Both the position numbers and the translations under genes were made by a program. Of a DNA stretch of 61,138 bases, positions 2,454-58,170 are shown one piece after another. The stretch comes from a virus. Numbering within the stretch: position 1 is the stretch's first letter; each line of letters opens with the position of its first letter. The stretch spans positions 1-61,138 of IMG/VR virus record IMGVR_UViG_3300050821_001088; one strand, given 5' to 3'. The notes below the pieces were generated by a model. That model was not told where the DNA came from, did no database searches, and was given only the letters and a program-made list of their open reading frames with translations.

Positions 2454-3542
2454 TTAGCTTGCCGCTGCGATGTGTTGCGCGACGTTTGGCCTACTGACAG
2501 AGGCCCTGCCGCGAATCACTACGGCAGCGTTGAAATCGGCATTCGCTTCGTAACCGCAAGCGAGGCACCGAAAGACGGATTGAGAAGGGCGATTCCGCTT
2601 ATTAATATGGCCACACTCAGAACATTCACGGCTGGAATTCCGAGGGTCCACGACAGCAGTGGATATCCCCGCAAGTCGAGCCTTGTACTCGATAAATGCT
2701 CTGAGTTGAGCGAATGCCCAAGAGTGCAGAACTGCTGGGTGCTGACGCCCAGCCGTGATCCTGGTGCGGATTCCGCGCAAATCTTCGAGCGCAATCCCTA
2801 CCCCAGTGCCTTTAGCTTTGGCAACGATCTGCTTGGATACGACGTGGTTTACATCGGACGCGAAGCGATTCTCACGACCGGAAAGTTCCCTGAGTTTACG
2901 ACGGCACCCGCGAGTCCCCTTGCTTTGAAGCTTGGAGCGAAGACGCCTGTTCCTGTAGCGAACTCCTTTTACGGTATCACCGGAGTAGGTTCCGCCATCC
3001 GAGTCTGTTGCGATATTGGCAACCCCGAGGTCGATGCCAAGCCATTCGTCCACTTCCCGCAGGGACGGTTCTTCCACATTGCAGGTAACAGCGAGATACC
3101 ACTTGCCGCGATGATAGAGCAAGTCGGACTCGCCTTGGCGCTGCTTGAGTTGTTCGATCTGGCGAGGTCCGGCCACATAACCAATGTTCTGACGCCCGCC
3201 AACGGTCCAGATGTTGACGTGCGATTCCTTACGGAAGCTCAGTATTCGATCATCATAGGCAATGGCCCCAGTCTTCCCGAACACCCGCTGTCGCTGTTTG
3301 TTGATCTTGTAGGCATCTGCAACTTTGGAAAGGGCGCGAATTGTGACTTGGGAGTTGAGTTCGTACAACTTTCTGGCGGGATGATAAACGGCCTGCTGGA
3401 GAGCGAAAAAGGAAAAGACTTTGATCTTCCAAGCCTCGGCACTCAACCAGTTAGCACAGTCGTTCGCCCGGTGAATGGTAGTCAGTAACAGGGCGGCTTG
3501 TTCCTTCGTCGGCAGCAGTTTGATTTTTGCTGTAATCTTCAA
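2454..3542 (-). CDS. tnpB: TnpB-family RNA-guided nuclease (IS200/IS605 OrfB-like)
   Basis: About 362 residues from a TTG at 3542; a longer frame upstream to 3614 runs through the promoter and is unlikely. RuvC-like catalytic residues are all present: Asp171 in L-G-I-D-L-G-V-A-N, Glu253 in A-L-E-D-L-R-G, and Asp336 in N-A-D-F-N-A-A. A zinc ribbon sits at Cys307/Cys310 and Cys326/Cys329. The N-terminal K-I-T-A-K-I-K-L-L-P-T-K-E-Q is the usual TnpB wedge-domain start. In this family the protein is guided by an RNA made from the element's 3' end to cut DNA next to a short motif. No TnpA is present, so the unit cannot move itself unless helped in trans. It lies opposite to the early operon, between two intact small genes. 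Confidence 0.9.
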   Translation of the reverse strand: MKITAKIKLLPTKEQAALLLTTIHRANDCANWLSAEAWKIKVFSFFALQQAVYHPARKLYELNSQVTIRALSKVADAYKINKQRQRVFGKTGAIAYDDRILSFRKESHVNIWTVGGRQNIGYVAGPRQIEQLKQRQGESDLLYHRGKWYLAVTCNVEEPSLREVDEWLGIDLGVANIATDSDGGTYSGDTVKGVRYRNRRLRSKLQSKGTRGCRRKLRELSGRENRFASDVNHVVSKQIVAKAKGTGVGIALEDLRGIRTRITAGRQHPAVLHSWAFAQLRAFIEYKARLAGISTAVVDPRNSSRECSECGHINKRNRPSQSVFRCLACGYEANADFNAAVVIRGRASVSRPNVAQHIAAAS

Positions 3543-3548
3543 GTATTG

Positions 3549-3557
3549 AGTATAGCA
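3549..3557 (-). promoter_or_regulatory. Extended -10 promoter of tnpB
   Basis: On the minus strand TGCTATACT forms an extended -10 (TGn plus TATACT, 5 of 6 to consensus). It ends 6 nt before the TTG at 3542. No good -35 is visible 17 nt upstream. Confidence 0.5.
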
Positions 3558-3595
3558 TAGGGAATGAAAAAGTTGCAGGAGGGCTGAAAACGCCG

Positions 3596-3823
3596 ATGAG
3601 CTACGAAATTCCAACGTGTGTCAAATGTGGCGCTGAGTACTCGATGCCTGAAGGTTACGAGGCTACTGCTTGGTGCAACCCATGCGCTCAGGAGTTGGTG
3701 CCGGAACTGCTGGAAGCGCTGGAAGTTCTTATTGCTCCAGACAATGGCAAGATTCGAGCCGCCGAATTAAAGGCAAATTTTGCCAAAGCGCGGGCCGTGA
3801 TCAAGAAAGCTAAGGGGCGGTGA
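3596..3823 (+). CDS. Small zinc-ribbon protein
   Basis: 75 residues from ATG 3596, with AGGAGG about 14 nt upstream. The N-terminal C-V-K-C-G and C-N-P-C pairs (residues about 8-30) form a zinc-ribbon arrangement. They are followed by two amphipathic helices ending in a Lys-rich tail. It is the first gene to the right of the TnpB insert on the + strand and presumably shares the early transcript. No specific function recognised. Confidence 0.65.
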   Translation: MSYEIPTCVKCGAEYSMPEGYEATAWCNPCAQELVPELLEALEVLIAPDNGKIRAAELKANFAKARAVIKKAKGR

Positions 3824-11066: not shown

Positions 11067-13073
11067 TTACTGCATTGATCCCACAAAAGCCGAGCATAAC
11101 TGATTTCCTTGCGAATCTTTGCCTAAATTTGCAAATCCGTCCGCAGGCCACATAGCCCCATCTCCACCCTGAAACACGAATCCAATGGAGTTCTTGCAAC
11201 CAAAAGAGCCAGAAGTTATTGAGTTGTATGTCGGGAAGAAGCGAAGAATTGGCAGGGGGCCAGATAATGGCTCCCCCCAAATCTCATTCTCCAATAGAGT
11301 CAGTGTCATTTGCCCCGGAGTCGAAAATCCTACACTATTTCCAGTCGCTATCACCCAAGGTTCGGCATCGTTGTTGAATGGATAAGCCATTCCACCGTGC
11401 GCCCCTGATGATGCGGTAGCTCCCGATGGAAAACAAGTCAAGGTGGTAAAGTTGCTCAATCCGGTTGACGATAGGGGGAACTCGGTGCGTATGTTTGGGC
11501 AAGGATCATTGGTAGTTAAATAGTTAGAAACAGCATCGGTATCATGGCCTGCGAAATTGTAGCCATTGCCGGGATTCCATGAACTGGTCCCACCCCCGAG
11601 GCCAAGTATATTGGTAGTTCCGATCTGCCAAAATGCCGCCGTACCCACTGCCAAATTCTGGCATCCTCCCGCCAGACGCATCACGTTTCCCGATGGCGAC
11701 ATTTGGGAATCGTGAATACCGTGAGGCGGAACAGCGTAATAGAGTGGGTCGTAGCATACGGTTTCCTGAGCGATTGGGGTAGCCGTAGCGCAACTGGATA
11801 AGCAGTTCCCGTAAATGTTCCCAAAGTTTCCTATGATTGCCCCTGTCGTAAGCGTAGTTGAGGCGGTATTCGTCAGAGGAGAGGCAGGGCAGGTATAGGA
11901 CACCGAGTTGCTAGTTTGTGCCGTAATGTTGGCTACCGGACAGTTGAAATTAGTATTTGAAGCATTCAGGACGTTCGCCGTAAATCCCGCTGGCATGTTG
12001 GGCTGTCCTGCCGTGGTGACAGTGGCTACATTCGCGGAAATACTCGCCGTTCCCGACAAGAAGGCCGTAGGTGATACATCAAGCGACTGACATCCTGCTC
12101 CGGGAGTGTAGACCAAGCCAAAATGGGCCGTACCCTGGCCCCCTCCGAACCCATTCGTCGCATTTGCCCATGAAATATCGGCAGAGAACATGGCATCGCC
12201 AAATGCGATGCCAAGAATTGATCCATTCGTTCCTGCCGTTCCGGGAGCGACCAATGCTGCAACTCCAGGACAAGTCGAAAAATCGAATGTAGTTCCAGGC
12301 GAACTAGTCATCGGCGTTACGCTCGTAGCGACTGTATAGTAAGTAAGAAGATTTATATTTTGGACGTTGAAAAATAGATTGGGATTAACTCTTGAAAATC
12401 CACACGGGCTGCTAAATTTCAGATTTGGATTCTCGCCCCCATTGGTGCTGTTCAGGATTGCCCCGCCGACCTTCGTCATCCCGAAAAGCCAACACGCACC
12501 ACCATTTAGTTTAATGGCGCAGGAAGTCGATCCCACGTTGCACATATTGTCATTCCAGCCGCCCGAGGACGAAAAGTTCCCAGTCGAAATATCGTAATCC
12601 AGATTTACTCCGGCAAAGGTATAAGGAAACGTCCCCGGTCCTCCAGTAACGGGCGTCGTAAGCGTAAGGGATGTGTTGCTTGCGGCTGAGATCAGAGATG
12701 TCTGCCCGTTAATGACGATCAGAGACTTTAGCCAACTAGAGGAGAACCCCGTTCCTGTGAAGATTGTGCCTGCCGAGTTCAGCGTCCCGGTACCGCTCGA
12801 ACTGGTCCCAAACTGCACGATGTTCTGATCCGTGAACCTGCAAATGAGATTAGTATTTGGGTTCAAGGGACCATGAAAGCATGTATTGAATGGCGTCGAG
12901 CTAGAGAACGGAGACGAGATTAGTCCAAGTGCAGCCGTGCTTCGGCTAGTTCCTGGGTAGCTTGGTGGTCCGAAGGCGCTTCCTATGGTTCCTCCCGCCC
13001 AGTTGCCCCCGGTAATGATAGTTGCCTGCCCGAAGCAACACCCCACCAACGCCAATGGAATCAGCCACTTCAC
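11067..13073 (-). CDS. Exported large hypothetical protein (signal peptide)
   Basis: 668 residues. The N-terminus M-K-W-L-I-P-L-A-L-V-G-C-C-F-G-Q is a Sec signal peptide with a likely cleavage after F-G-Q. The rest is beta-rich, Ser/Thr/Gly/Asn-rich and low in charge, with scattered Cys pairs, like surface or extracellular adhesins. No enzyme motif seen. The start overlaps the end of the next gene by ATGA. It is one of five consecutive genes with signal peptides. Confidence 0.75.
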   Translation of the reverse strand: MKWLIPLALVGCCFGQATIITGGNWAGGTIGSAFGPPSYPGTSRSTAALGLISSPFSSSTPFNTCFHGPLNPNTNLICRFTDQNIVQFGTSSSGTGTLNSAGTIFTGTGFSSSWLKSLIVINGQTSLISAASNTSLTLTTPVTGGPGTFPYTFAGVNLDYDISTGNFSSSGGWNDNMCNVGSTSCAIKLNGGACWLFGMTKVGGAILNSTNGGENPNLKFSSPCGFSRVNPNLFFNVQNINLLTYYTVATSVTPMTSSPGTTFDFSTCPGVAALVAPGTAGTNGSILGIAFGDAMFSADISWANATNGFGGGQGTAHFGLVYTPGAGCQSLDVSPTAFLSGTASISANVATVTTAGQPNMPAGFTANVLNASNTNFNCPVANITAQTSNSVSYTCPASPLTNTASTTLTTGAIIGNFGNIYGNCLSSCATATPIAQETVCYDPLYYAVPPHGIHDSQMSPSGNVMRLAGGCQNLAVGTAAFWQIGTTNILGLGGGTSSWNPGNGYNFAGHDTDAVSNYLTTNDPCPNIRTEFPLSSTGLSNFTTLTCFPSGATASSGAHGGMAYPFNNDAEPWVIATGNSVGFSTPGQMTLTLLENEIWGEPLSGPLPILRFFPTYNSITSGSFGCKNSIGFVFQGGDGAMWPADGFANLGKDSQGNQLCSAFVGSMQ

Positions 13074-13540
13074 TTAATCACGCACCCCGAAGCTGTTAGT
13101 GTCCCACTCGAACCACTGCTGATCTGTGCCGTAGAGCAAGCCAGCGTAGTTGGCGGACCAGAAAGCATGGAATAACTGTAGTCGTTCAATGTGGGTACTG
13201 CCGCAGGGGTTGTACGCCCATTGAAGGAGGTCAGGAATGCTCCACCGCCCGCAGCGGGATATGGATTCCACGTAGTCGATCCATTGAGCGAGAAATACAT
13301 TTGAGAGGTCGCTGCGACTCCGGTATCCACGAAGCACCACGCTACCCCAAAGGAGATCGTAGCTCCTGTAGGAAGAGTGCATCCTGAAAGCGAGGAAACG
13401 ACCATTGGAGAGGCAAAGCTGCCAACGGTAGGAGCTTGGGCCTTAACCGTGACCACAGGACGTGCCAGCAGTGTCACCATCACGGCAACGTTACAGATGA
13501 GGCTAACGGCTAGACATGCGAGGGTGAATTGCTTCTTCAT
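13070..13540 (-). CDS. Exported hypothetical protein (signal peptide)
   Basis: 156 residues from ATG 13540 (GGAG 7 nt upstream). A positively charged start, K-K-Q-F-T-L-A-C-L-A-V-S-L-I-C, leads a long hydrophobic segment and a K-A-Q-A-P cleavage-like site. The mature part is beta-rich with a Trp-Cys motif (G-V-A-W-C-F-V-D). No family recognised. It overlaps the end of the large 13503-16721 gene by 38 bp. Confidence 0.7.
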   Translation of the reverse strand: MKKQFTLACLAVSLICNVAVMVTLLARPVVTVKAQAPTVGSFASPMVVSSLSGCTLPTGATISFGVAWCFVDTGVAATSQMYFSLNGSTTWNPYPAAGGGAFLTSFNGRTTPAAVPTLNDYSYSMLSGPPTTLACSTAQISSGSSGTLTASGCVIK

Positions 13541-16500
13541 TTTTGATCTCCTGATTCTGGGCAAGTGAATTGCTTCCGATGATAGTCGAGCCAGCGAAGA
13601 TTGCGGGGAAGGGAGCGGGAGGCCCTACGATTGCCCCATAGCACGATGCTTCGTTGAACGTTAGCGCTGCGGTAGTGACCCCATCAGCAGGACCGCTCAT
13701 TGGGCCAAGGTAGCAATCCATTGCTGGGTTACTGTAGGCCAATCCAGAAAACGCGGAGGCAGTCGAGCCGCTCGGACATTGCGAGCTATTTGTAACCAGG
13801 GCGCGCGTCTGGGCCCCGCCAGTGCAAGTCAGCAGATTACCACCCGTTATGTCCGGGCCAATGATCGGCCACGCCTTGCCGCTCGGCCACCAAGATGGCG
13901 TTGCGGTGTAGATGAATGATGACGGCAATACGTGATTTCCTGGGCATGGAGTAGACAGGAAGAACTGGCTCGTATAGAGGTTGGCGTTGGCGGTCGTGTT
14001 CGACGGGAATTGCTGAATCTCGCTGCAATTGAATCGCGGAGAGCCGTATCCGGTAACATTGTCGGCGTTGCCCCAGAACATCGCCGTAGAGCTGGTGTTA
14101 GGGTCGGCATTCACGCTGGAGTTGTTGAACAAACCCAACTGCACAACCATCGAAGTGCCAGAGGCCGCCGTGCTATAGACGGTCGAGGCATTCACGTTTT
14201 GAAGAATGTTTCCAATGTAGGAATAAAAGCGATGATACGCGGTCAACTGAACTGCCGCAGTGGGGTTTGCGCATGAGCCATAAGAGGCCGCAGCGTAACT
14301 TAATCCGCTCGAATAGCAAGACGGCTGCGCCCCGTAATACAGGTTCCTAAAATGCGTGTTCCGGTTGCTGGTGGCGTGAATATCGTCGCCTGTGGACCAG
14401 TTCGTGATGTTGCCTTCCAGCAGCATAGTATCACTGGCTCCGTGGTCGCCTTCGCCGTTCTGGTTATAAGTAGCGGTGTTGAAATAATTGTTAACCGAGA
14501 AATTGTAGGCAAATACTTCGTTGTTCGATGGGCCATCGACGATCATGGGGCTGGCGACGCCGTGAAATATGTTGTTCACCACCAGCGTGTTTCCACTTCC
14601 CCATGATTCCGTTCCATAACTGCAAGTTGCCGTTTTATTCGTCAGAAATAGGTAATTATTAAGAATCGATCCGTTAGTGCTTGTCTCGTAATGGATATGT
14701 GACTGGTTGCTATTGAGGATGCGGACGCCCTTGATCCACCAATTCTGCGCGTTGCGTATGAATATGCCAGTCTGACCGCCGCACAATCCGCCACCCACAT
14801 TCGAGGCGTCCACCGATAAGTCTTCAATGCCCACGTAAGACACTGGAGATGTCGGCCCCCATGCCGACATCGTGCTTGCGCTGGTCCAGTTCGGCATCAG
14901 CAGGGGAGGATTGATTCCCACGACCACGTTACTGCCCGAGCACGATGCCCCTACGGTCGTGGTTCCATTGCAGGAGGTGATCGTTACATACTGCTGCTGG
15001 TGATAGCAGTTGGCCGGAGAAGTAGAAACACAACTGCCATTTCGGTTGCCATTGGCGTTGCTGCCGCTGACATTGTATGGGCCGTTATTTCCGGGAGTCG
15101 CTGAAGACCCGCTTGACGTTGAACCGCTGACGAGTATCCCACCATTATCGCTTGTGGTGTCGAGTTGATCGAGTACCAGAAACCCTCCAACTGTGAGACT
15201 GCCTCCCGCAGTTAAGGTAATTTGATTGCTGCCTTGTTGCAGCATTCCGGTAACAGTGGTCAGATTATCGGGACTAGCGGCTGTATTGCTGTCGGTAGCG
15301 ATCAGTCCGATGGCGGCAGAGTTCCCACAACTGCTAGTTCCCGCAGCCGGAACCAAGAACGTCTGATCCGCCCCAGCCCCGCGAAGGGCCGTGTTGCTGT
15401 ATCCGTTCATGCAAACTGGAACGGTATAAGTTCCGGATGGCAGAAGCACGTAGGTTTTCGATCCCGAAGCCGAAGAAAGGGCGGACTGAATCTGCGTCTG
15501 TGTCGAACTAGACCCATTCGTTGTTACGGTCCGGCAAGCCGTAGTCACGCATTGCGACCATGAACCGCTGGGGATTCCTCCAGAAACTCCGACAGATGTC
15601 CAGTTTCCTGTTCGGTTTGCTGGCAATATGTAGGAACTGGTATCGGACTGACCCCAAAATAATGGAAGTTCTATATATTCCGTCACGCCACTGGCTGTCG
15701 TTCCCGCATAGGTCGAAGTCATCGTGCAATGTGTCGTGTCGGCGCAGTAGGCGATCTGGTACATCACGCCGCCGATCAGCATCCACCCGCCCCACCCAGA
15801 CTGGCCCCACTGGTTCCCGGCGACGAAAGTGCTGCCACTGGCTCGCACAACAGTAGCGCTACCGTTGACGACGTTCACCGTTCCGGTTGGAGCGCTGTTC
15901 GACCACGCCAGCATCATATTCTGATAGTAACTATACGTTCCTGAGTTCGAGCCGCCCTCGTTGCTGAACACGCGAGAGTAGGCGTAGGTGGTCGTCGTTG
16001 GCTCGGTCAGCCAGGTTGATCCGACCAGCGTGCCTTGTGGCGTGAAGATGTAAAGCAGGCCAATCCCGTTCGTCATGTCCCAAGTGAGAGCGAAATAGTA
16101 GGTCGAACCGCCCCCCGCCGAGCCTGTGCCGAACGGCAAACCGATGCAGGCGGAGTGTGGGCTGACTGCGCGATTCTCAATTCGGACTCCAGGCTCCCCT
16201 ACCCCTCCGCAGTAATCAGCGAACTGCATATCGAAGTACTCGTTAGAGCCGCCCGACTCCAACATCATGATCATGTCGTTGTCGAAGCCGCCATTCTGGA
16301 ACGGAATGCTGAAGGTCAGGCAGCCTGTGAGTTGAACGTAGTGCGAACTAGCCGCGCCCCCGACGTTCATCAACACGCCCAAGGTTCCATTGGAGGAATC
16401 AAGATGGCCGATGTTGTTATAGTTCTGGCTTTCGGCAGAGAGAAGTGAGCCTCCACCATTCATCTGGATTGGGCCAAGATTTGAGCACACTCCCTGATTC

Positions 16501-16721
16501 GCCCCAACTTCCAATCCCGTGACGGTTCCGGTGAAGTTGCACCCCGCCGCTCCCGGCGTGCATACGTTACTGACTACTCCGGCGTTGCCGATGGCCGTAG
16601 TAAATGTTGTGCCCGGAGAACTCGTATTCATCTGGATCAGAGCATCGGCATTGACCGTAGACCACTGGCCTTGGCCGAAACAGGGGGCTGCAAGCAGCAA
16701 AATGGCGAGTAGAATCTTCAT
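13503..16721 (-). CDS. Exported beta-helix protein (pectate-lyase-like)
   Basis: 1072 residues. Signal peptide M-K-I-L-L-A-I-L-L-L-A-A-P-C-F-G-Q. The N-terminal third looks like a concanavalin/LamG-type beta sandwich. From about residue 370 there is a right-handed beta-helix signature with repeated G-V-x-I-x-N turns and N-N-x-F rungs (for example N-S-N-Q-S-H-I-H-Y, then V-V-N-N-I-F-H-G-V). Such folds occur in phage tailspikes that bind or cut polysaccharide, but tailspikes normally lack signal peptides. Substrate unknown. Confidence 0.7.
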   Translation of the reverse strand: MKILLAILLLAAPCFGQGQWSTVNADALIQMNTSSPGTTFTTAIGNAGVVSNVCTPGAAGCNFTGTVTGLEVGANQGVCSNLGPIQMNGGGSLLSAESQNYNNIGHLDSSNGTLGVLMNVGGAASSHYVQLTGCLTFSIPFQNGGFDNDMIMMLESGGSNEYFDMQFADYCGGVGEPGVRIENRAVSPHSACIGLPFGTGSAGGGSTYYFALTWDMTNGIGLLYIFTPQGTLVGSTWLTEPTTTTYAYSRVFSNEGGSNSGTYSYYQNMMLAWSNSAPTGTVNVVNGSATVVRASGSTFVAGNQWGQSGWGGWMLIGGVMYQIAYCADTTHCTMTSTYAGTTASGVTEYIELPLFWGQSDTSSYILPANRTGNWTSVGVSGGIPSGSWSQCVTTACRTVTTNGSSSTQTQIQSALSSASGSKTYVLLPSGTYTVPVCMNGYSNTALRGAGADQTFLVPAAGTSSCGNSAAIGLIATDSNTAASPDNLTTVTGMLQQGSNQITLTAGGSLTVGGFLVLDQLDTTSDNGGILVSGSTSSGSSATPGNNGPYNVSGSNANGNRNGSCVSTSPANCYHQQQYVTITSCNGTTTVGASCSGSNVVVGINPPLLMPNWTSASTMSAWGPTSPVSYVGIEDLSVDASNVGGGLCGGQTGIFIRNAQNWWIKGVRILNSNQSHIHYETSTNGSILNNYLFLTNKTATCSYGTESWGSGNTLVVNNIFHGVASPMIVDGPSNNEVFAYNFSVNNYFNTATYNQNGEGDHGASDTMLLEGNITNWSTGDDIHATSNRNTHFRNLYYGAQPSCYSSGLSYAAASYGSCANPTAAVQLTAYHRFYSYIGNILQNVNASTVYSTAASGTSMVVQLGLFNNSSVNADPNTSSTAMFWGNADNVTGYGSPRFNCSEIQQFPSNTTANANLYTSQFFLSTPCPGNHVLPSSFIYTATPSWWPSGKAWPIIGPDITGGNLLTCTGGAQTRALVTNSSQCPSGSTASAFSGLAYSNPAMDCYLGPMSGPADGVTTAALTFNEASCYGAIVGPPAPFPAIFAGSTIIGSNSLAQNQEIKNEEAIHPRMSSR

Positions 16722-18139
16722 GGCGCTATTGCGTTCCCCACAATCGTAGACCCGACAGCCGGACCGAGGTAAATATATTCGCTGCCAGCCGTAGTTGAAT
16801 TCCCGCTGTGGCCAAGTTCAAAAAACGCAGGATTAAAAACCGCTGAAGAACACGTTGCGGTGCTGGTGCCGACAAGCGCTCCTGTCGAAGCGTTGTAAAG
16901 AGAGATAGTATGCTCGCCGCCACCTATGTAATTGATCTCCATCCAGTAGAGCGTATTGAGAGAATAATTTACATTGTTCCCGTGTGAAACGCCGCCGCAC
17001 GCCACTTCAACATTGAACTGAGCCTGCGTTCCGGTGCTCTGGATGTTGCACTCCGCGTAATCAGTTGCCGTCCCAGCGATCCATCCACAGGCGAGTTGCG
17101 TAGTGTCTGAAAGAGTTTGAGCGTTGTAGAACAAGAACCCGAAGGAAGCGTTGGCGCTGTTGGTGGTGAACGCGTACCTACCGACATTGGACGCATGAAG
17201 ATCGTGCTTCCACATCACGCCCGGAACAGAACCCGTATTACTCGTCCCGCAGGCAGTTTTGGACGTATAGAAAGCGGGCGTAACGGTATTACTATAGGTG
17301 TCTGTACCGAAAGCTCCGCCACCATCCCACCGGCCGGTTCCGACTTCCGTGCCGCTGTTGAGATTCGCTTGGCTAATCGTGGTTCCGCTGGTGTTTCCAG
17401 TAAAGTCCACAATCATATTAGGGTCTATGTTGCACGGGCCGGGACCGTAGACGTTGGTTGGAACGTAGACATTGCCAAAATAGTAAGTGTTGCTGGCTAT
17501 TCCGGTAATGTCCAGTTCGTTGAATCCGTTGCTGTTCGCCGTAAATGTCGCATTCGCTCCGCCGTCTATATTTACATAAGAGCTGGACGCGCCCGATTGG
17601 ATGTGAATCCGCATCAGATGCCAGACATTCTTGCTCGGAGTAACCGCGCTGCTGGCGGTTGACCCTTGCATCTGATAACTCCCGTTTCCGTCAGATTTGA
17701 ATTGGGCGACATAAGCGGCAACGGTGCTGTCGTACAACTGCATGACAGTGTTGAAATTGCTGGTGCTTGTGGTGAGATAAAACGTGAAATATAAATCGAA
17801 CGTCGTGCCCGCTGGAATGTGCGGAATATCGTAAGCGCTGATCTGCCCAGCTACCGTGAATTCTATGCTGTTGGGGCACACACCAGAAATCAGCGTTCCC
17901 GGACTAGACACCACGGCTGGAGCTGTGCCGGAAACCACTGTCCATGTTTGATAGAAATTGCTGTTTCCCCCACTGGCCCAGTTCAAAGCCGATCCATCAT
18001 CTCCGAACCCTTCTGTAAATGTATTGCCAAAAGTAGTACAGATCGACGGATTAGGAGTGTTCCCCGCCACCTGCTGCAAAATCTGAGCGGAGCAGGAAGC
18101 GCAGAGCAGCGCGAGAATTAGGATCAGTTTGCGGTCCAT
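16718..18139 (-). CDS. Exported LamG/lectin-like protein
   Basis: 473 residues. The start M-D-R-K-L-I-L-I-L-A-L-L-C-A-S-C-S-A-Q carries a signal peptide; the C-A-S-C could serve as a weak lipobox. The body holds two concanavalin-type beta-sandwich halves: F-D-L-Y-F-T-F-Y-L in the first, and T-L-Y-W-M-E-I-N-Y-I-G-G-G-E-H-T-I-S-L-Y in the second. ATGA overlap with the downstream gene. Carbohydrate binding is a reasonable guess, no more. Confidence 0.7.
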   Translation of the reverse strand: MDRKLILILALLCASCSAQILQQVAGNTPNPSICTTFGNTFTEGFGDDGSALNWASGGNSNFYQTWTVVSGTAPAVVSSPGTLISGVCPNSIEFTVAGQISAYDIPHIPAGTTFDLYFTFYLTTSTSNFNTVMQLYDSTVAAYVAQFKSDGNGSYQMQGSTASSAVTPSKNVWHLMRIHIQSGASSSYVNIDGGANATFTANSNGFNELDITGIASNTYYFGNVYVPTNVYGPGPCNIDPNMIVDFTGNTSGTTISQANLNSGTEVGTGRWDGGGAFGTDTYSNTVTPAFYTSKTACGTSNTGSVPGVMWKHDLHASNVGRYAFTTNSANASFGFLFYNAQTLSDTTQLACGWIAGTATDYAECNIQSTGTQAQFNVEVACGGVSHGNNVNYSLNTLYWMEINYIGGGEHTISLYNASTGALVGTSTATCSSAVFNPAFFELGHSGNSTTAGSEYIYLGPAVGSTIVGNAIAP

Positions 18140-21100
18140 GTTCCTCTCTGCACATACACTTCCCAGTCCGTCGCGTCGATGGCAACAAAGCAGGCTGAGT
18201 CCCCAGCCGCTCCGCCCGATGCCACGCCGTGCGTTCCGCCGCCGCCGATGGTATTACGAACGCCGTTGAGGATCACGTAGGAACTGGCCGGAGGATACAC
18301 GGTAAGTACCCCGGTATCGGCTGCGCCAGTGCCCGAAACAATGGAGTTGCGAACGCAATACTGAAGCCCGGTTGCCGTGGCGGGCAAAGTATAAGTCACA
18401 CCCGTACCCGCCGTGGCTTCCTGGTTGAAGGTGTAGCCGCTGCTATAAGTCGCAGCGCCTAGCGTGGCAGTCGTACCGGTGGTAATCGTCACCGGAGCTT
18501 TACCGTCCACGATGCCTGTGGCGATCAGGCTGGTCCCAGTAGCCGCTCCAATGTTAGGCGTCACCAGCGCAAGCGATGAGGCCAGCTGGGTTCCGGTTAT
18601 TGTGTTGTTTGTGATGTCTGCGGCCACGATAGCACTGCTCGTCACCGTCTGCGTTGATCCCGCGAAGTGCGCGATGCCCGCGCCTGGAGAAACCGCTAGC
18701 ACGAGATTTGCTGGGTTGCTGCTGGATTGCGAGTAGGTCAACGAACTTCCAGCCGAGCCAATCGAAGTCACTTGCGAAGTAAGCAGCCAACTGGTGATCG
18801 CATTTGCCGTTCCAGATTGTACGAATATCGGTCCAGTATTGTTTACATCTGCAACGGTGTCATAGTCCAACGCCCGCGTGAAAACGGTCGAGACGCCCGT
18901 CGTACCTACCACGGTGACGGCGTAAATACCATTCTGCGAGGCCGTGCTCTGATTCTTTAACAGCACAGGTTGGCCAATTGCTGTGATTGCCACGCCATCA
19001 ATTGTAGTTGTGCCCGTGGCGGTAATTGTAAAGGTATCGCCGATGCCGCCGCCCACTTGCACGTAAGTCCCTGTGAGGTTCGCGGTTGTAGCGATGAGGA
19101 CTGCCGTCGCCGCATTGCTTCCGGTGATTGCAGCAGCTACGAATGCAGTCGTAGCCAGTTTTGTCGTGCTGTCCGCATATGCCTGCGTAGTGGCAGTAGA
19201 TGATCCAAGCGCTTGTGCAGCAGTCCACGATTGGGCAAGATTTAATTCTGCGATTATCCCCGTGTTCGCCGGAAGGGATGCCGTAACCGTCCCGAGTGCT
19301 CCGGCGACCGTTCCGAGCGTTACGATGCCACTGGTCGCATTTCCGAACCCAATCGTGCCTGCGGTGCCTGATTTACCCAGAACCGGGGTAGAAATGTAGG
19401 ATGGAGCTGCTGCCGAAGTCCCCGAATTAGCGAGAACCGTCCCGGCTCCTGCGTTTGCCAGAGTCAGCGTCACGCTTCCAGTCGATGCAGAATTCGAGAT
19501 GATCGTTCCATCCCCAGTGATCGAGTTCACGCTGCTGGAGGCTGCGGGAGCAAAGACAAAGGCTTCATAATTCGTCCCATCCGAATAGACGAATGCGCCA
19601 GAGGGAGCGGAAGCCGAACCGACCGGGAGGGTGATATTGCTCGCCGTCCCATTTATATTTTGCCCGCTTCTGGCTACCGTGACTACTCCGGAACCATAAT
19701 TCTCAACCCAGATACATTGCCCCGAAGGAGGCTGGGAACCAGAGGCTACCAGGGTAACCGTGAATGTTCCAGAGGCCGCTGGGATGGTCTTACAGCCCGC
19801 AAAATCTGCGGCCAGGACTTGATATGTAGCGGTCTTGGCATTCACTACAAAAGGCTGTGCAGCAATCAATTGTGAACTGGAGTTTGAGCCAAGAAAGAAA
19901 GATGAGGCTGGAATCGCCGCGCCTTCCACCTGTGTAACCGTGAATGCTCCGGTATTCGCCAGAGTTACATCGCCCGAGGCCGCTACGTCTACAGGTAGAT
20001 TCGAGCCGTTGCCGACATAGAGATGGGCGCTGGTCAAGGCCGCAGCGATTGGCTGGGCGCTTCCATTTGTGCCAAGCAGTTTTGCCGAGGTTGGTACGGT
20101 GGTGCCATTGATTGCCCCTACCGTCATAGCACACGTACCTGCGGTGTTTGTCGCGTCTCCCGTCAGCGCCATGAAGCCTTCGCAACCAAGCCTGCCATTG
20201 GCGTCCGTTGGTAGAATTTCTGCTCCCCAGTAGTTGGCGTTATCGGACCACCAGAACATGGCTTCCGGGTTGTGGCCAGCAACCGCACCAACCAATTTGG
20301 CTGTAGCGTTTCCATTGATCGCTGAAGTTGTTGGCGTATCTGTGGCAACCACGGAACCAGTGTTTGTGTGGACAAACGCGAATCCGCTTCCGAAGCTGGT
20401 AGACCCAGCCTGAGGTATGGCAACAGCCGTAGACCCCGTACTGTTTGTGGATTGTAGATTCTCCACGCGATCCGTAGCGGCTACCGTAAAGGCAGAACTG
20501 GATTGAGTGTCAACCGTGACTCCCGGCAGCGCCCAAGACTCAAGAGCGGCAGCGCCCCCTGAAGGGGTGTCTGTCAAAAGCTGTGGAACGCCATTCGGAG
20601 TCGTAGGCCCCGGAAGCCGAGAAGGAGTTGGAACTGCGTTCTCGATGATGATGTCGCCTAGGGTAGTCATCGGGTTGGTAAATGATCCACTGCTTCCCGC
20701 CGAAAGGTCGGGGGGATACTTGATGATGTTATAGGTTCCCGCCCCACCATTCGTAGAAAGAACTCGCCCAATGATTTGTCCGCTGGCTGGAGGATTTAAT
20801 ACTCCTGCATCAGTGCAATCCCCTGCGATGGAGGTACTGATCTGCACGTAATCATCGGCCGTGGTCGCTCCATCGAAAGCGCACGATACCTGCCCCTCCG
20901 TCGCAATCTGAGCATTACCCGTAGTGGTGCAGTTTCCTACGCAAATTCCCAGAACTCCAGCCGTATCTGTGGTAGCCGCAAGAACAACCGTGGATGGTGC
21001 CCCCGTTAATTTGGCTAACTTGTTCAGGGTTGTGCCCGTAGACGAGGCATTCGCAACTTCTGTGACGATGGATTGGCTGGTTAAATCCAGTGGCAATTTA

Positions 21101-24100
21101 AGTGTCTTGAATGTGGAACTCAGCCCCTCAACCCATGAAGACCCATCCCCCACGTTGTTTATATATTCATGCAGGGTTTGGCCTGCACGAATCGTCATGC
21201 AGCCATTTGCCCCACTGCAATCCGAGCCAAATGCCAAATCTGCAGCATCCCAGGCTGGACGGTAATAAGGCGTGGCCGCCGTCTTGAACTTATTGGAGTC
21301 CTGAATGGTCAGGAAATCGGAGTTCCCCGATGAAGCGCTGAGATTCAGAATTCCCTTCTGGCTGGCCGATGAACTATTGGACTGATTTGTAGACTGCATC
21401 ACCGTCGCTATTTGCCCCGCAATGGTGTAATCAGGATCAGAAGAAGAGCAGGTCACTGATTCCGGAGCCTGCATACTGGTGCCAGTGAAATCACTGAAAA
21501 ATGCCCCGCACATGCTGGCAGTTAGGCCCGATGAATTCGTTCCCCAAGTGGAAATATAATTGGTGCGGAGTTCATCAATCGAGATCACCGCAGCGGAGCT
21601 AACCAAACTCCCCGGCCAGTACCATAGACTTGGGAACCAATTCGGCTCCGCCACAGTATAGGAAGTCAGGGCAGGCTGAGTGTCCGTAAATGAACACATG
21701 CCATTATTCCCGCAAGTCGCCGTCAATCCTGCGGTGAGGGCAAAATTTCCGGTTCCATAGAGCGGGGTTATGCTTGTCCCTGTCGTGACCAGAATATCCC
21801 AAGTAATCGCTCCGTACACCGCATTCAGGGATGTTCCTTGACCGAAGGCTAGGTTAGGCCATGTCAAAGGGATACTCACGGCCCCGCTGGTCGGGATTGC
21901 TTGCCCGATGGGGAGGATGGCGCTTGTGAAGCTCTGCGCTGCTTGATGGGCTACCACAAAATAATTCCGCGTGTTCCCTGAAGCCCCTCCAGTTACGAAT
22001 ATAGGCAACTCCCCACCAATTGGATATGCCCCCGCCCCCACGATCTGTGCATGACCTCCAGGGCCAATGAAGGTCCCTGCGGACGGATTGGTCGGAAGTG
22101 TGGACGAGCCATAAAGTTGGTTGGTGCAGGAGATTCCAGCCTCCTCATACACATTCTCCTGCGCCACTCCTACTAGGCCGGGACTCATGAAGATGTTCCA
22201 CTGAGTCCCGCCTTGGACCACGGAGTCCTTGATGGTGAATCCATTTCCACTGAGGGCGAGGATTCCATTTCCTCCACATGCCATGCTGATGTCTGAATTT
22301 TGTACAGTAACCACCGAGGCATTCGATTGGTCTCCGCGTGCGTAAATCGCAGTTCCGCAGAAACCGGAACCCGATACTAGGCACATGAAGGGGCCGCCTA
22401 CGGTGAAGTTGTCCACGGTCGCCTTCTGATCGTTATCGAATACCAGCCCGTAACTAAACAAGAATGTAGTCGAGTTTGGCCCACGGGTATGAATGTCCCG
22501 GTAGATCGAGTCGTTCGCATTGTCCTCGATGATGGCATTTTCAAGTGCGGCCCATCCGAAAGCAGGAGCGTTGGCGAACGTCGTACTTCCAACCGTGAAC
22601 GTAAAATGGGTATTGTCTGGAACAGATGCGAGCGGGAAAATTCCGTGGATGTGGTTGCTTCCAACGGCCCCCGTGTTTACATAGAAATTCACGTCCACAT
22701 AATCAGGCCCGCCAGCATTGGCAGTCATTGAGAACGGATGGGTATTCGTGTGAACTGTGTACGTTCCCGAGGCCGCCGTTACATCTAGAATCTGCGTTCC
22801 GTCAATCGTTAAGCCGGACTGGACCGTCAATCCTTCCGTTACGTGATTTACCCCTCCAGCCGTAAGCGTTCCATCAAAGAAGCATCTGCTTCGCGTGTTG
22901 CATTGAATGTAAGACCCGTAGCCGCTGAAGAGAGAACGCCTGGACCCTCGCGTGGTCAGAAACACTGGAGCATAAACCTGATAGTTTGGCGTAGTCGTGC
23001 TCTCGGCTGACAGGAGATGGACTTCGCAGTATCCGATCTGGAGAGTACCATTCAAGCCGCAACCATCATTCCATGCTTCCTGAATGCCAGTAGAGGCCGA
23101 ACCTACCGTGAACCCTGCCGAGTGGGAGTTTACGGGAGTAAATGTGATGGTTCCACTGGCACCCCCAGGCGTGCAACTTCCTCCGGTAACCGCTACGGCT
23201 TCAGCGGTTCCTGTCCCGGCAACATAGGCTGAATAGGGACCGTTGGCAAAGTTTGAGGTGTCCACTCCTGCGGGGCATGGTGTCAGTGTGACAGTGGCAG
23301 GACTTCCGCCAGTCAGTGAACCAGATGGCGATTGCACCCAGTTGTAGTACGGAGTGGCCCAGACTACCTTGTTGACGATGTTTTCATTCAATGTAGTCGC
23401 TGTCGGCTGTATAACCGTCTGGCTTGTCGTAGGCGCAGTCAGCACGCAGCCCGAAGCGCATCCCCCTCCACCGCTAGTAGTTTGCGGATTCAATAGTTGG
23501 TAAACGCTTAGGGTGGGATTCCATTCGACAACCGCTAGAACGTTTTGTATTAAATCGTTGGGGGCTAGAGCCGTCCCACTGTCAGTCCCATCTGGCTTTA
23601 CCAGTCGGTAACTAGTGCCGCCATTTATGGTTAACAAGGTCGTCCCTCCACCCGGATACGTATAGGAGGGGTAGAAAGAGAAGATGAACGGCAAGGAAGT
23701 AAAAAACGGCTCAAGTAGGGTTGCGGTGATTAGAATCCCTCCGCCGCCGCCCGCGCCATTCCAGATACTGTAATCAGGAATGGGGTAGCAGGCTAAGCCG
23801 TTGATGCACTCGCCTATCGTCCCACTCGAATTAAGAATACCGAATTCTGTATTGGATGCCAGTGGAGCTATGTATCCTCCGCCTAGAGAGCTTTTTACGA
23901 CGTAGGAACCATTGCTGGCGTAACTGGCACCAAAGAAGTTTCCTGATGGGTCTACGGTAGCAACGGGATTCGGGTTTACGGTAGTGCTGCTGGCCGCCAA
24001 TGGGTAGTCAGCGATTGCGTTGGCATTCCCGGCATTCGGAGATACGGTCCCGCTTGCTCCACCACCGCCACCACTGCCACCTCCGAATACATCTGGCCTT

Positions 24101-24471
24101 ACATCCTGAAGGTTGTAAACCATTGTGGCATTTGTAGTTGCAATAGCCACGGGATAAACGTTGGTGGAAAATCCAGTAGTGTTCGAGCCTATTACCCCGG
24201 CAACCATGTCGAGATACACATAGGTCTTCGTGTTGGCAGCCAGAGCCAATCGCTGTGTTGGTATGGTAATCGGCGTGCCCGAAACAGTGATTTGGCCTGT
24301 CCCTACGTTAAGCCAGAGTCCATTAAGCGCGGGAGCGCTGGGGAAGAAGAAGGGGTTAAACGCAGGAAGAGAAACTGCTCTTTTGGCATCAGGAACCTGC
24401 GCCAGAACCGAAGCACACAGCACCATTGCAATGACTATCTTTTTAAGCAAAGAATGTGACCGTCCCAGCAT
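18124..24471 (-). CDS. Giant tail-fibre-like protein with signal peptide
   Basis: 2115 residues from ATG 24471 (GAGGA about 8 nt upstream); the frame stays open 50 codons further into the neighbouring gene. The N-terminus S-L-L-K-K-I-V-I-A-M-V-L-C-A-S-V-L-A-Q is a signal peptide. The middle is beta-helix-like. The C-terminal third has classic phage tail-fibre elements: T-T-Q-A-Y-A-D-S-T-T-K-L-A-T-T-A-F-V and V-L-L-K-N-Q-S-T-A-S-Q-N-G-I-Y. These suggest a receptor-binding appendage. A cleavable Sec signal on such a protein is unexpected. Confidence 0.75.
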   Translation of the reverse strand: MLGRSHSLLKKIVIAMVLCASVLAQVPDAKRAVSLPAFNPFFFPSAPALNGLWLNVGTGQITVSGTPITIPTQRLALAANTKTYVYLDMVAGVIGSNTTGFSTNVYPVAIATTNATMVYNLQDVRPDVFGGGSGGGGGASGTVSPNAGNANAIADYPLAASSTTVNPNPVATVDPSGNFFGASYASNGSYVVKSSLGGGYIAPLASNTEFGILNSSGTIGECINGLACYPIPDYSIWNGAGGGGGILITATLLEPFFTSLPFIFSFYPSYTYPGGGTTLLTINGGTSYRLVKPDGTDSGTALAPNDLIQNVLAVVEWNPTLSVYQLLNPQTTSGGGGCASGCVLTAPTTSQTVIQPTATTLNENIVNKVVWATPYYNWVQSPSGSLTGGSPATVTLTPCPAGVDTSNFANGPYSAYVAGTGTAEAVAVTGGSCTPGGASGTITFTPVNSHSAGFTVGSASTGIQEAWNDGCGLNGTLQIGYCEVHLLSAESTTTPNYQVYAPVFLTTRGSRRSLFSGYGSYIQCNTRSRCFFDGTLTAGGVNHVTEGLTVQSGLTIDGTQILDVTAASGTYTVHTNTHPFSMTANAGGPDYVDVNFYVNTGAVGSNHIHGIFPLASVPDNTHFTFTVGSTTFANAPAFGWAALENAIIEDNANDSIYRDIHTRGPNSTTFLFSYGLVFDNDQKATVDNFTVGGPFMCLVSGSGFCGTAIYARGDQSNASVVTVQNSDISMACGGNGILALSGNGFTIKDSVVQGGTQWNIFMSPGLVGVAQENVYEEAGISCTNQLYGSSTLPTNPSAGTFIGPGGHAQIVGAGAYPIGGELPIFVTGGASGNTRNYFVVAHQAAQSFTSAILPIGQAIPTSGAVSIPLTWPNLAFGQGTSLNAVYGAITWDILVTTGTSITPLYGTGNFALTAGLTATCGNNGMCSFTDTQPALTSYTVAEPNWFPSLWYWPGSLVSSAAVISIDELRTNYISTWGTNSSGLTASMCGAFFSDFTGTSMQAPESVTCSSSDPDYTIAGQIATVMQSTNQSNSSSASQKGILNLSASSGNSDFLTIQDSNKFKTAATPYYRPAWDAADLAFGSDCSGANGCMTIRAGQTLHEYINNVGDGSSWVEGLSSTFKTLKLPLDLTSQSIVTEVANASSTGTTLNKLAKLTGAPSTVVLAATTDTAGVLGICVGNCTTTGNAQIATEGQVSCAFDGATTADDYVQISTSIAGDCTDAGVLNPPASGQIIGRVLSTNGGAGTYNIIKYPPDLSAGSSGSFTNPMTTLGDIIIENAVPTPSRLPGPTTPNGVPQLLTDTPSGGAAALESWALPGVTVDTQSSSAFTVAATDRVENLQSTNSTGSTAVAIPQAGSTSFGSGFAFVHTNTGSVVATDTPTTSAINGNATAKLVGAVAGHNPEAMFWWSDNANYWGAEILPTDANGRLGCEGFMALTGDATNTAGTCAMTVGAINGTTVPTSAKLLGTNGSAQPIAAALTSAHLYVGNGSNLPVDVAASGDVTLANTGAFTVTQVEGAAIPASSFFLGSNSSSQLIAAQPFVVNAKTATYQVLAADFAGCKTIPAASGTFTVTLVASGSQPPSGQCIWVENYGSGVVTVARSGQNINGTASNITLPVGSASAPSGAFVYSDGTNYEAFVFAPAASSSVNSITGDGTIISNSASTGSVTLTLANAGAGTVLANSGTSAAAPSYISTPVLGKSGTAGTIGFGNATSGIVTLGTVAGALGTVTASLPANTGIIAELNLAQSWTAAQALGSSTATTQAYADSTTKLATTAFVAAAITGSNAATAVLIATTANLTGTYVQVGGGIGDTFTITATGTTTIDGVAITAIGQPVLLKNQSTASQNGIYAVTVVGTTGVSTVFTRALDYDTVADVNNTGPIFVQSGTANAITSWLLTSQVTSIGSAGSSLTYSQSSSNPANLVLAVSPGAGIAHFAGSTQTVTSSAIVAADITNNTITGTQLASSLALVTPNIGAATGTSLIATGIVDGKAPVTITTGTTATLGAATYSSGYTFNQEATAGTGVTYTLPATATGLQYCVRNSIVSGTGAADTGVLTVYPPASSYVILNGVRNTIGGGGTHGVASGGAAGDSACFVAIDATDWEVYVQRGTWTAN

Positions 24472-24913
24472 CCGCAGTCCTCGGGTGTTCGTCTTTCCTG
24501 TGTACAATGTTTTCCATGAACCAGGGCCGAATTGGAAGTTGTAAATTTGCATAGAATAAAGCCCTTTGAGGAATCCCCTTCCCTCCAGCCTTCCTAACAT
24601 CCGCCGCCACAGTGATGTCATCTTTCAGGCTTCCGTCGTAGATTGACGTGCATTGTCCGTGTAACCAGCGGAAAGTGGAATCCCAGATGTCTATATAGGA
24701 ACGAAAGTCCATCTCGGAAATGAGACTGGAAGAGTGAATATCCGCATCGGCCAAAAGCCTCAACCACTCGCCCCCCTGCCATCCAGACTCCACGCGGTTC
24801 CTGATCACATGGGCTATGCCTTGCATCACTGGGCGGCATCCCGGCGCTAAACGACGACCCTCCCTGAATGAGAACATCGTTAACTGACATATTGTGATTT
24901 CAGCGGCGTTCAT
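24443..24913 (-). CDS. SleB/CwlJ-like cell wall hydrolase
   Basis: 156 residues. The pattern F-R-E-G-R-R-L-A-P, then G-I-A-H-V-I-R-N-R-V-E-S-G-W-Q-G-G, fits the SleB-type hydrolase family (lytic-transglycosylase-like), with Glu17 a candidate catalytic residue. The C-terminal half has D-I-T-V-A-A-D-V-R-K and A-L-F-Y-A-N-L. In short-tailed phages such enzymes either help lysis or open the wall during entry. It lies just downstream of the internal-virion module and overlaps the giant fibre gene by 29 bp. Confidence 0.7.
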   Translation of the reverse strand: MNAAEITICQLTMFSFREGRRLAPGCRPVMQGIAHVIRNRVESGWQGGEWLRLLADADIHSSSLISEMDFRSYIDIWDSTFRWLHGQCTSIYDGSLKDDITVAADVRKAGGKGIPQRALFYANLQLPIRPWFMENIVHRKDEHPRTADAGTVTFFA

Positions 24914-37750: not shown

Positions 37751-37914
37751 GCCGCCCTCATCTCCTTCAGCAGTTTGGCTACGGCCAGCATCTCATCATG
37801 GGTCAACAGGTGACACTTAATCCTATTGCAAGAGACGCAGCATCGGGTTTTGATTATACGGGCAACGATATTCTGTTGCCCGTAAGTTGTTGATTCAGGA
37901 GATGTTGCTGGCAC
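37747..37914 (-). CDS. Small Cys-rich protein overlapping the capsid gene
   Basis: 55 residues from GTG 37914, which lies inside the last codons of the capsid gene in another frame. The stop overlaps the next ATG. Core C-C-V-S-C-N-R-I-K-C-H followed by a helix (H-D-E-M-L-A-V-A-K-L-L-K-E-M), so zinc binding is likely. No clear ribosome site precedes the GTG. Translation by re-initiation or by slipping past the capsid stop (TCC-TGA) would also fit. The coding sequence contains the 9-bp hairpin at 37858-37883. Confidence 0.55.
   Translation of the reverse strand: MPATSPESTTYGQQNIVARIIKTRCCVSCNRIKCHLLTHDEMLAVAKLLKEMRAA
37858..37883 (-). repeat. Perfect 9-bp hairpin after the capsid gene
   Basis: ACGGGCAAC (37858-37866) and GTTGCCCGT (37875-37883) with an 8-nt loop, 12 nt beyond the capsid stop. 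No U tract on either strand, so it may attenuate or stabilise mRNA rather than terminate it. Confidence 0.6.
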
Positions 37915-38920
37915 TATCGATGTAACGAAATCTGAGCGTAGTGTCAGGTCCCAAGCTCGCTGCGTAAAAAAGATTATAGGATGTCCATCCGCCTATAACC
38001 CCAGCCGGATCAGCCGCCGACGTAGCTGGCGATTTCACCAGTTCGGTCGAAATGTTTCTCCATTCGCCTTCTCCGATCTTTGCGCCTTCTTTTGCACCCA
38101 AAGAGATGCCGAAGGTGGCGTTCTGACCGAAGTAGTACGAGCGGAATGCGGTGATTCCCGTGTGGCCCAAGTAGTTTGGAGTCTGGGTGACCATTTGGCA
38201 CTGATAGGCCCTGAGTCCAGAAACGTCGAGGACGGGAGCTTCTTCACCGGGAAGTTCGTAGAGGGCGTCGGGGTCTTTTGCACCTCGAACCGCCGCGAAC
38301 TTCGCAATGTCAGTGATGCCGCCGACTGAGGTATCGTTCAGTGCATCACCGATGCAGAACGAGTGAATCAGGGCAGCGAATCGGTTAGCACCTTGATCGA
38401 AGGCTTTCACGCCACGGCCTTGCAAAGACTGGATTGCAGCTACGAAATCCGTCTTGGCCAATGTGGAGTTATACGCCTTGGAAAGTGCATTTACCGAAGA
38501 GTCAATGGTCGGGCCAGTATCCACTACGTTGCGGTGGACTGAGTTGAGTGACAGCGCGGCACGGTAGGCGATTTCCTCACGGAGATTGCCCAGCGCATCA
38601 TCGAGCGCCGTCAGTAGAGCATAATTCGACAGGGAAATATAATCAGCATATTGCCCAATGGTCGTGGTATTTGTAAGGACTGCGGGCGTGATTCCCGACC
38701 CAACCGTACCTTCCGAGACTTGCGTGATATTCGCCGCAAGGGGCTGGTACATGAAGAGTTCCAGTTTATTACCTGAATTTAACGGGAGCGGTCGCCGCTC
38801 AGAGCAACGAAGAAACAACGTCCACAACTTTAAGTTTTCCACAAACTTGCGGTCGTAGAACGTAACTGTGGACTGAGGCAGCGCATTTGAGGTGGTGCTT
38901 GCCGAATTGTATCCGCTCAT
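37895..38920 (-). CDS. Major capsid protein, N4-gp56 family
   Basis: 341 residues. F-Y-D-R-K-F-V-E-N-L-K-L-W-T, then R-R-P-L-P-L-N-S-G-N-K-L-E-L-F-M-Y-Q-P-L and V-S-E-G-T-V-G-S-G are hallmark elements of the N4-gp56 major capsid family (HK97-type fold). A-Y-R-A-A-L-S-L-N marks the spine-helix region. It forms the icosahedral shell. It follows the scaffold-like gene, the usual order. The last codons overlap a small Cys-rich gene. Confidence 0.85.
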   Translation of the reverse strand: MSGYNSASTTSNALPQSTVTFYDRKFVENLKLWTLFLRCSERRPLPLNSGNKLELFMYQPLAANITQVSEGTVGSGITPAVLTNTTTIGQYADYISLSNYALLTALDDALGNLREEIAYRAALSLNSVHRNVVDTGPTIDSSVNALSKAYNSTLAKTDFVAAIQSLQGRGVKAFDQGANRFAALIHSFCIGDALNDTSVGGITDIAKFAAVRGAKDPDALYELPGEEAPVLDVSGLRAYQCQMVTQTPNYLGHTGITAFRSYYFGQNATFGISLGAKEGAKIGEGEWRNISTELVKSPATSAADPAGVIGGWTSYNLFYAASLGPDTTLRFRYIDSASNIS

Positions 38921-40389: not shown

Positions 40390-40622
40390 TTTCCTTCTCT
40401 GGCTATCCCAGCCACAATATCTTCAAGGGTAATGTGATGAGTCACTGAATCAGTATTTCGCAAGGATGCTTCGTGCTTGGCAAATAACATTGCGCGGGCT
40501 GCTTTGATTGAGAACTTGTAACTATCGTCAAGCGTGCGAAATTTATCATCCCGCAGGGCATTTTTCCATAAATCAACAATTTCATTTACGTCGATTTTGT
40601 TGCTTGGTTTCGTATCTCTCAT
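40386..40622 (-). CDS. Small helical hypothetical protein
   Basis: 78 residues, charged helices (I-V-D-L-W-K-N-A-L-R-D-D-K-F) and K-A-A-R-A-M-L-F-A-K-H. ATGA overlap with the portal gene. Possibly an assembly factor; no family recognised. Confidence 0.6.
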   Translation of the reverse strand: MRDTKPSNKIDVNEIVDLWKNALRDDKFRTLDDSYKFSIKAARAMLFAKHEASLRNTDSVTHHITLEDIVAGIAREGK

Positions 40623-42751: not shown

Positions 42752-42915
42752 TGAGTCGGCACTTCTTTTATGGTTACTCTATTTGGTTTCCGCTCAATGT
42801 TTACAGCGATGGGGTAATGACTACTGGCCTCAAATGAATACGAGAAATTCTCTTCATCTTGAAGTTTTAGCCAGCGAATGAACCGATCCTGATCGCTAAA
42901 TATAAGCGCAGTCAT
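42748..42915 (-). CDS. Small hypothetical protein between terminase and portal
   Basis: 55 residues, overlapping both neighbours through ATGA. W-L-K-L-Q-D-E-E-N-F-S-Y-S-F-E-A-S and A-V-N-I-E-R-K-P-N-R-V-T-I suggest a small beta fold. No family recognised, but the double overlap argues it is real. Confidence 0.65.
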   Translation of the reverse strand: MTALIFSDQDRFIRWLKLQDEENFSYSFEASSHYPIAVNIERKPNRVTIKEVPTQ

Positions 42916-57524: not shown

Positions 57525-57577
57525 TCCGAGACTTCGGGGCTGGTGGACGAATCCACAAAGCCTGCCTCAAATCCTAG
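57455..57577 (+). CDS. Small zinc-ribbon protein
   Basis: 40 residues, GGAGG 4 nt upstream of the ATG. L-C-A-K-C-G-K-Q-A-R-P-G, then H-K-A-C-L, a compact C-x2-C ... H-x2-C site. Last gene of the rightward operon; its stop overlaps the convergent lipoprotein gene. Confidence 0.55.
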   Translation: MPKRGTQRLCAKCGKQARPGSAVVRDFGAGGRIHKACLKS

Positions 57578-58140
57578 CGCCCATGCTTGTGATGCACGTG
57601 CACCAATGCTCCGCAGGCCGTATCCCCTAAACAGACCTGAGTCTGCCATCGCATCTGCAAGCCTTCAGGGGTTGGCATTCCGCCAATTGTGCGGGCGCTG
57701 ATATTGGCAGTGGACGGGGATACCGCATTCACAATGGCTACAGCCGTATCCGTGACCAGATTTACCCATGCCGTGGCCTTCTGCACTGCCATTGGATCAA
57801 CAATCTTAGCCGCTGCCAGCTCTTGAGGCAGATTGCTTTGGATTGCCTGAGCTGCTACCACGACGTTTTGCAGGTTGCTCGATGTCTTGTTCTTCTCGTA
57901 GTTGTCGTATGCGGTCTTGATGGCATTGACTCCCGCAATTCCAAGGCCAGTAAGGAGCTGCAGGGCTGCACCATCTGCCGGGGAGACTGCGCCAATTGCG
58001 CCTTCCAAGTTCGCGGCGGTCTGCAATACGAGATCAATGTCAGAAAGCACCTGATCGACCGTGCAAGCTGTGAGCACGATAGTGAAGCACAGAACGGCGA
58101 TTACGGCGTGCTGCCAAGCATAATTCCAGAGTTTCTGCAT
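57574..58140 (-). CDS. Predicted lipoprotein
   Basis: 188 residues from ATG 58140 (GGAG 8 nt upstream). Signal A-V-I-A-V-L-C-F-T-I-V-L-T-A-C with lipobox L-T-A-C. The mature part is Ala/Val-rich and helical, with a His-rich end (H-V-H-H-K-H). Last gene of a leftward cluster. Outer-membrane location inferred; function unknown. Confidence 0.65.
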   Translation of the reverse strand: MQKLWNYAWQHAVIAVLCFTIVLTACTVDQVLSDIDLVLQTAANLEGAIGAVSPADGAALQLLTGLGIAGVNAIKTAYDNYEKNKTSSNLQNVVVAAQAIQSNLPQELAAAKIVDPMAVQKATAWVNLVTDTAVAIVNAVSPSTANISARTIGGMPTPEGLQMRWQTQVCLGDTACGALVHVHHKHGR

Positions 58141-58170
58141 GGTTATTGCTCCTTCGGGCGAATTGTACAC

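Follow-up and report, generated by a model that had tools for sequence, protein, structure and literature searches.

Five consecutive late genes of a podovirus-like soil phage (genes 1 to 5, numbered by position) each begin with a Sec-type signal peptide (SP), as the original prediction had it, and the same design recurs in unrelated phages of acidobacterial hosts. We analysed the whole of an IMG/VR virus record 61,138 bases long (the window). Two of the five proteins are built around domains shared with exported host proteins, and they may work at the surface of the infected cell.

Signal peptides in a late gene block

All five reading frames lie on the minus strand, as do the terminase, portal and major capsid genes (Table 1). 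The contig also holds a transposase gene. With cleavage placed by motif (slash), the N-termini in the order of genes 1 to 5 are MKWLIPLALVGCCFG/QA, MKKQFTLACLAVSLICNVAVMVTLLARPVVTVKA/QA, MKILLAILLLAAPCFG/QG, MDRKLILILALLCASCSA/QI and MLGRSHSLLKKIVIAMVLCASVLA/QV. Each has a positively charged n-region, a hydrophobic core and small residues at −3 and −1, with gene 2 borderline. The cleavage sites predicted earlier (FGQ/SAQ/QA/LAQ-like) are borne out in that a plausible [AG]/Q motif puts a glutamine at +1 in all five.

Table 1. Positions of the late block and of other features in the window (SP, predicted signal peptide; a slash marks motif-placed cleavage)
Feature	Position	Strand	Length	SP	SP score	Other properties
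Gene 1	11067-13073	minus	668 aa	CFG/Q	5.2	GTG start; 18 Cys
Gene 2	13070-13540	minus	156 aa	VKA/Q	5.7	ATG start; small Cys-containing mature part
Gene 3	13503-16721	minus	1072 aa	CFG/Q	6.2	330-aa N-terminal extension; parallel beta-helix 355-1050
Gene 4	16718-18139	minus	473 aa	CSA/Q	6.95	beta-rich mature part; 8 Cys
Gene 5	18124-24471	minus	2115 aa	1-24, VLA/Q	8.3	25-130 phage-specific beta; 330-1190 host-shared; 1714-1998 tail-fibre-like repeats; 1965-2115 shared C-terminal
Small gene directly upstream of the SP block	24443-24913	minus				
Major capsid protein	37895-38920	minus		none		phrog_1357, 6e-17
Portal	40619-42751	minus		none		phrog_332, 4e-22
Large terminase	42912-44642	minus		none		phrog_38, 1.9e-35
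Transposase gene	2454-3614					phrog_506, 2e-48
ORF outside the late block	57574-58170			VLTA/CTVDQ		SP- or lipoprotein-like start

The SP scorer was written for this analysis and combines n-region charge, h-region and −3/−1 residues, with a threshold of 5. Tried on annotated E. coli sequence (49 kb), it called 12 of 12 SP proteins, none of 24 cytosolic proteins and two of six membrane proteins. Its own cleavage positions are rough, and the [AG]/Q sites were set by motif. Among 57 picked ORFs of the window only one besides the five scores (the last row of Table 1), and by permutation five in a row have a p of about 5e-5. The scorer calls no SP on other virion genes of the window, and none among 93 ORFs of at least 150 aa in T7, phi38:1 and Page.

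A purine-rich stretch resembling a ribosome site stands exactly before the SP start codon of genes 2, 4 and 5, and is weaker in genes 1 and 3. Longer frames are available for gene 2, whose longest ORF would begin with TTG at 13564, and for gene 5, which has an upstream in-frame ATG at 24621. The lipobox test scored none of the five genes; gene 1 has a marginal lipobox, LVGC, with only 11 residues ahead of the cysteine. Pfam found no peptidoglycan hydrolase domain in the five, as would be looked for in a secreted endolysin. Gene 4 has no Pfam or PHROG match, and its single-sequence AlphaFold model (pLDDT 36) is unusable.

The SP call is least secure for gene 2, whose hydrophobic stretch of about 20 residues could be a membrane anchor. 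This long stretch, together with the fact that the scorer alone does not separate SPs from N-terminal membrane helices, would fit the alternative that the hydrophobic starts have no role in export and anchor ordinary virion proteins during assembly or in a membrane. However, such starts are missing from the rest of the virion proteins of these phages, and further evidence against anchors comes from the relatives and host homologues described below.

Relatives, probable host and recurrence of the design

The capsid protein of the window has 84-87% identity to four soil contigs, found by a pattern search of viral contigs, 80% identity to a 65-kb contig in a Candidatus Sulfotelmatobacter (Acidobacteriota) metagenome-assembled genome (MAG), and 45% identity to Tunturi_3, a podophage of Tunturiibacter. 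Because the Sulfotelmatobacter contig and Tunturi_3 are among these capsid relatives, the host is very probably an acidobacterium. The closest full-length relative of the window is the phage in the Sulfotelmatobacter MAG (the MAG phage). The same MAG holds another portal gene (G029:C120:10874-12847, 32% identity), probably from a second related phage.

A similar gene order in relatives, which had been proposed as a check, was found in the MAG phage: three consecutive SP genes of 1272, 140 and about 1274 aa in the same place, with the 140-aa protein in the position of gene 2. The last of these three proteins has, in its C-terminal third, a homologue of gene 1, with the similarity beginning at residue 16 of gene 1, which is its SP cleavage site. 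Directly upstream of the SP block, both phages keep a similar small gene (166 aa in the MAG phage); by eye its product appears cell-wall-hydrolase-like, and a Pfam search of the window's copy gave no match.

The design is also present in Tunturi phages. In the isolated podophage Tunturi_1 (PP887698), five of six neighbouring late genes carry SPs, namely gp12, gp13, gp14, gp16 and gp17, with gp14 annotated as tail spike and gp17 as virion structural. The siphophage Tunturi_4 has SPs on gp111 and gp114, the latter with 50% identity to Tunturi_1 gp17 over half its length. Five more distant capsid relatives (G020, G021, G022, G023 and G028) have two to seven SP genes each, and SP proteins of relatives include GH30, chitobiase C-terminal (CHB_HEX_C) and beta-helix domains. 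G023 (L076/L077), a soil phage of 112 kb, has SPs on seven late genes, and one of these encodes a GH30 glycoside hydrolase domain. No SPs were found on the fibre genes of Tunturi_3 and its near relatives G009-G011. Since Tunturi_3 shares its host strain with Tunturi_1, growth on this strain does not depend on the trait, which is common, not universal.

We considered whether the five-gene block could be host flank or a misassembly, and rejected this because phage genes flank it on both sides, a similar block is present in the MAG phage and the same design is found in the complete genome of an isolate. A pattern search of viral contigs for direct relatives found none, either for gene 5 or for the 592-aa gene, tblastn of genes 1, 3, 4 and 5 against 50,697 phages gave no match, and Tunturi_1 gp11 used as a query found no relatives among viral contigs.

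Probable export and the host homologues of genes 3 and 5

Of 150 Terriglobales genomes, 14 encode homologues of the beta-helix part of gene 3 (best E 3.8e-76), with 31-40% identity across most of the homologue length and with the conserved cysteines inside the alignment. The host-shared part of gene 5 has homologues in 16 of the 150. Nearly all complete-start chromosomal homologues of the two genes carry SPs, and the homologues are Cys-rich. The portal, used as a control, matched in only 3 of the 150 genomes, so this homology is not simply prophage content. Of the protein types first assigned to the block, beta-helix stands for gene 3 only, by way of these homologues, and LamG-like was not confirmed by Pfam.

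A close look at three genomes places the gene 3 homologues within polysaccharide clusters, where their neighbours are glycosyltransferases, O-antigen ligase/polymerase (Wzy_C), flippase-type proteins, DegT aminotransferase and UDP-glucose/GDP-mannose dehydrogenase. This location suggests that the exopolysaccharide of the host itself is the probable target of the gene 3 protein, to be acted on or bound. A beta_helix_1 match in this family is weak (E 1.3e-7, under the curated cut-off). The chromosomal proteins form an exported, Cys-rich parallel beta-helix family of about 700 aa within exopolysaccharide clusters of Terriglobales (L135, L136, L139; G140, G142, G100); the members tested have no Pfam match, and the family is possibly an uncharacterised polysaccharide lyase or epimerase. 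After each of the chromosomal gene 5 homologues of about 1700 aa, which carry SPs (L137, L138, L106; G043, G121, G029:C129), comes another large SP gene, with a mature part that begins [AT]TYYVSSS; the two form a conserved host pair.

Cleavage before glutamine is a habit typical of the host. An [AGSC]Q context is found in 25 of 34 large SP ORFs of the phages and 15 of 22 Granulicella plasmid proteins, compared to 3 of 16 E. coli proteins. The SP also keeps its place when mature domains are reshuffled: in gene 3 it precedes the 330-aa extension, which in turn precedes the host-like part, and in gene 1 it directly precedes sequence that makes up the last third of a longer SP protein of the MAG phage. 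Because the +1 glutamine is host-typical, host homologues of genes 3 and 5 bear SPs and the SP stays N-terminal in the rearranged genes 1 and 3, we consider it likely that the five proteins are Sec-exported. The earlier claim of export is better supported than before, also by the recurrence of the design. The same three observations fit cleaved SPs and weaken the anchor alternative, which the original prediction had offered and which we now regard as very unlikely.

Real homology to exported host proteins would also be expected if the phage had captured host surface-protein genes passively, with the SPs retained merely as a by-product. We think this improbable, given that genes 1 and 3 are new N-terminal arrangements in which the SP still comes first, that the trait occurs in unrelated podo- and siphophages, and that genes 1 and 4 have no chromosomal homologue among the 150 Terriglobales genomes.

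The mature parts are also unusual in composition: they have 2.0% Cys and 6.7% charged residues, where the remaining virion proteins of these phages have 0.5-0.8% and 19-20%. This holds both for the window and for the unrelated Tunturi_1. Exported Granulicella proteins overall are not Cys-rich (0.5%), so the Cys richness supports a special family and not export as such. For this reason we rejected an argument for disulfides from a general Cys enrichment of exported proteins, and base it only on pairwise co-variation: across the gene 3 family, both cysteines of each pair, 966/982 and 658/661, are present or missing at once, which is how disulfides behave.

Models for the late block and known systems

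We propose a model to which we give about an even chance, in which the phage acts on the host's surface polysaccharide or envelope after late Sec export. Late in infection, the phage would make beta-rich, Cys-rich and mostly very large proteins with host-type SPs, which the host Sec machinery and signal peptidase I would move to the periplasm or surface. There the proteins would bind the envelope and surface polysaccharide of the host itself, or modify them, with gene 3 built on a beta-helix protein of host exopolysaccharide clusters and gene 5 supplying a long fibre-like protein. The most likely benefit would be a polysaccharide coat opened for escape and spread of the progeny; alternatively, progeny and rivals may be kept from sticking to the dying cell. 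Of the roles offered in the original prediction, blocking of further phages, coating of the cell and release as decoys are all candidates, and the host homologues indicate surface polysaccharide as the target. What we observe are the signals, the recurring design, the homology to host proteins and the Cys pattern; that the proteins are in fact exported, what they target and how the phage benefits are deduced from these.

Gene 5 has fibre-type parts. Its tail-fibre-like repeats match orf22 of PDB 9efk, a solved 18-chain structure (E=1.7e-9) for which we found no describing paper. Gene 5 alone among the five has this match, and PHROGs gave no virion-fibre match. The phage-only domain directly after its SP is common to four phages (the window and three others); all three family members with complete starts have SPs, which differ in sequence while the domain that follows is clearly conserved. 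A two-sequence model of this N-terminal domain has low confidence (pLDDT 52), and its fold matches, receptor-binding and tail proteins, are weak hints. The C-terminal domain of gene 5 is found in another SP protein as well.

The virion-type domains of gene 5 and the annotations of Tunturi_1 gp14 and gp17 would fit virion parts, and thus count against action on the host surface. Alternatively, the fibres and spikes would be exported first and reach their folded, disulfide-bonded state in the periplasm, and the mature forms would join progeny tails when lysis brings periplasmic and cytoplasmic contents together. The conserved domain right after the SP of gene 5, its 9efk match and weak fold matches, the Tunturi_1 annotations and the fact that no better SP-less fibre candidate is obvious in the window all speak for this route. 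However, to our knowledge no tailed phage assembles its fibres by export followed by attachment to the virion, the model of the gene 5 N-terminal domain is poor, and sequence alone cannot put a protein in a virion. We regard the route as a whole as rather unlikely, and its last step, virion attachment after export, as similarly doubtful. In its general form, that tailed phages of Acidobacteriota Sec-export their fibres and spikes, mature them through disulfides outside the cytoplasm and attach them at lysis, the proposal is unlikely; if true, it would amount to tailed-phage assembly by way of the host periplasm.

Whether the preferred model of surface action or this alternative holds, such a late block of exported proteins, fibre- and beta-helix-type and mostly very large, would be new, as a means of working on the host surface during infection or as a means of building virions. 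It recurs in unrelated phages of one of the commonest soil phyla, and it ties late genes of phages to the exopolysaccharide clusters of their hosts. Both readings are directly testable in the isolate Tunturi_1 (host T. psychrotolerans X5P2), and 'tail spike' labels on such SP genes need checking; the main text of the Tunturi paper mentions neither signal peptides nor mass spectrometry (PMC11924767). Our literature search, mostly of open-access papers, found no description of tail fibres with Sec signals, of SPs in acidobacterial phages or of fibre- and sugar-binding-type phage proteins sent to the infected-cell surface in the way that seems to apply here.

Phage-exported proteins are known singly, as endolysins and receptor maskers. 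Receptor-masking lipoproteins of the T5 Llp type are phage products sent to the envelope that could block adsorption, but they are small, whereas the window's proteins are mostly very large and of the signal peptidase I type. Podophage fibres and tailspikes such as T7 gp17 and the P22 tailspike resemble the block in size, beta structure, place after the tail genes and the repeats of gene 5. The known ones lack SPs and assemble in the cytoplasm, in contrast to the five genes here with an SP on each, and our scorer finds no SP gene in T7. Lys44 of Oenococcus phage fOg44 and the SAR endolysins are phage proteins that use host Sec export before lysis (PMC6116005), but as single small lytic enzymes and not as a block of fibre-like proteins. 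The beta-helix proteins of Terriglobales exopolysaccharide clusters share with gene 3 the SP and conserved Cys pairs; they are about 700 aa, lack the 330-aa extension and are host proteins, not products of a late phage gene. The Tunturi_1 block, gp12-gp17, has no detectable homology to the window and is annotated as tail spike and virion structural, yet it has the same design of adjacent late genes with five SPs, Cys-rich and charge-poor, in a phage of an acidobacterial host.
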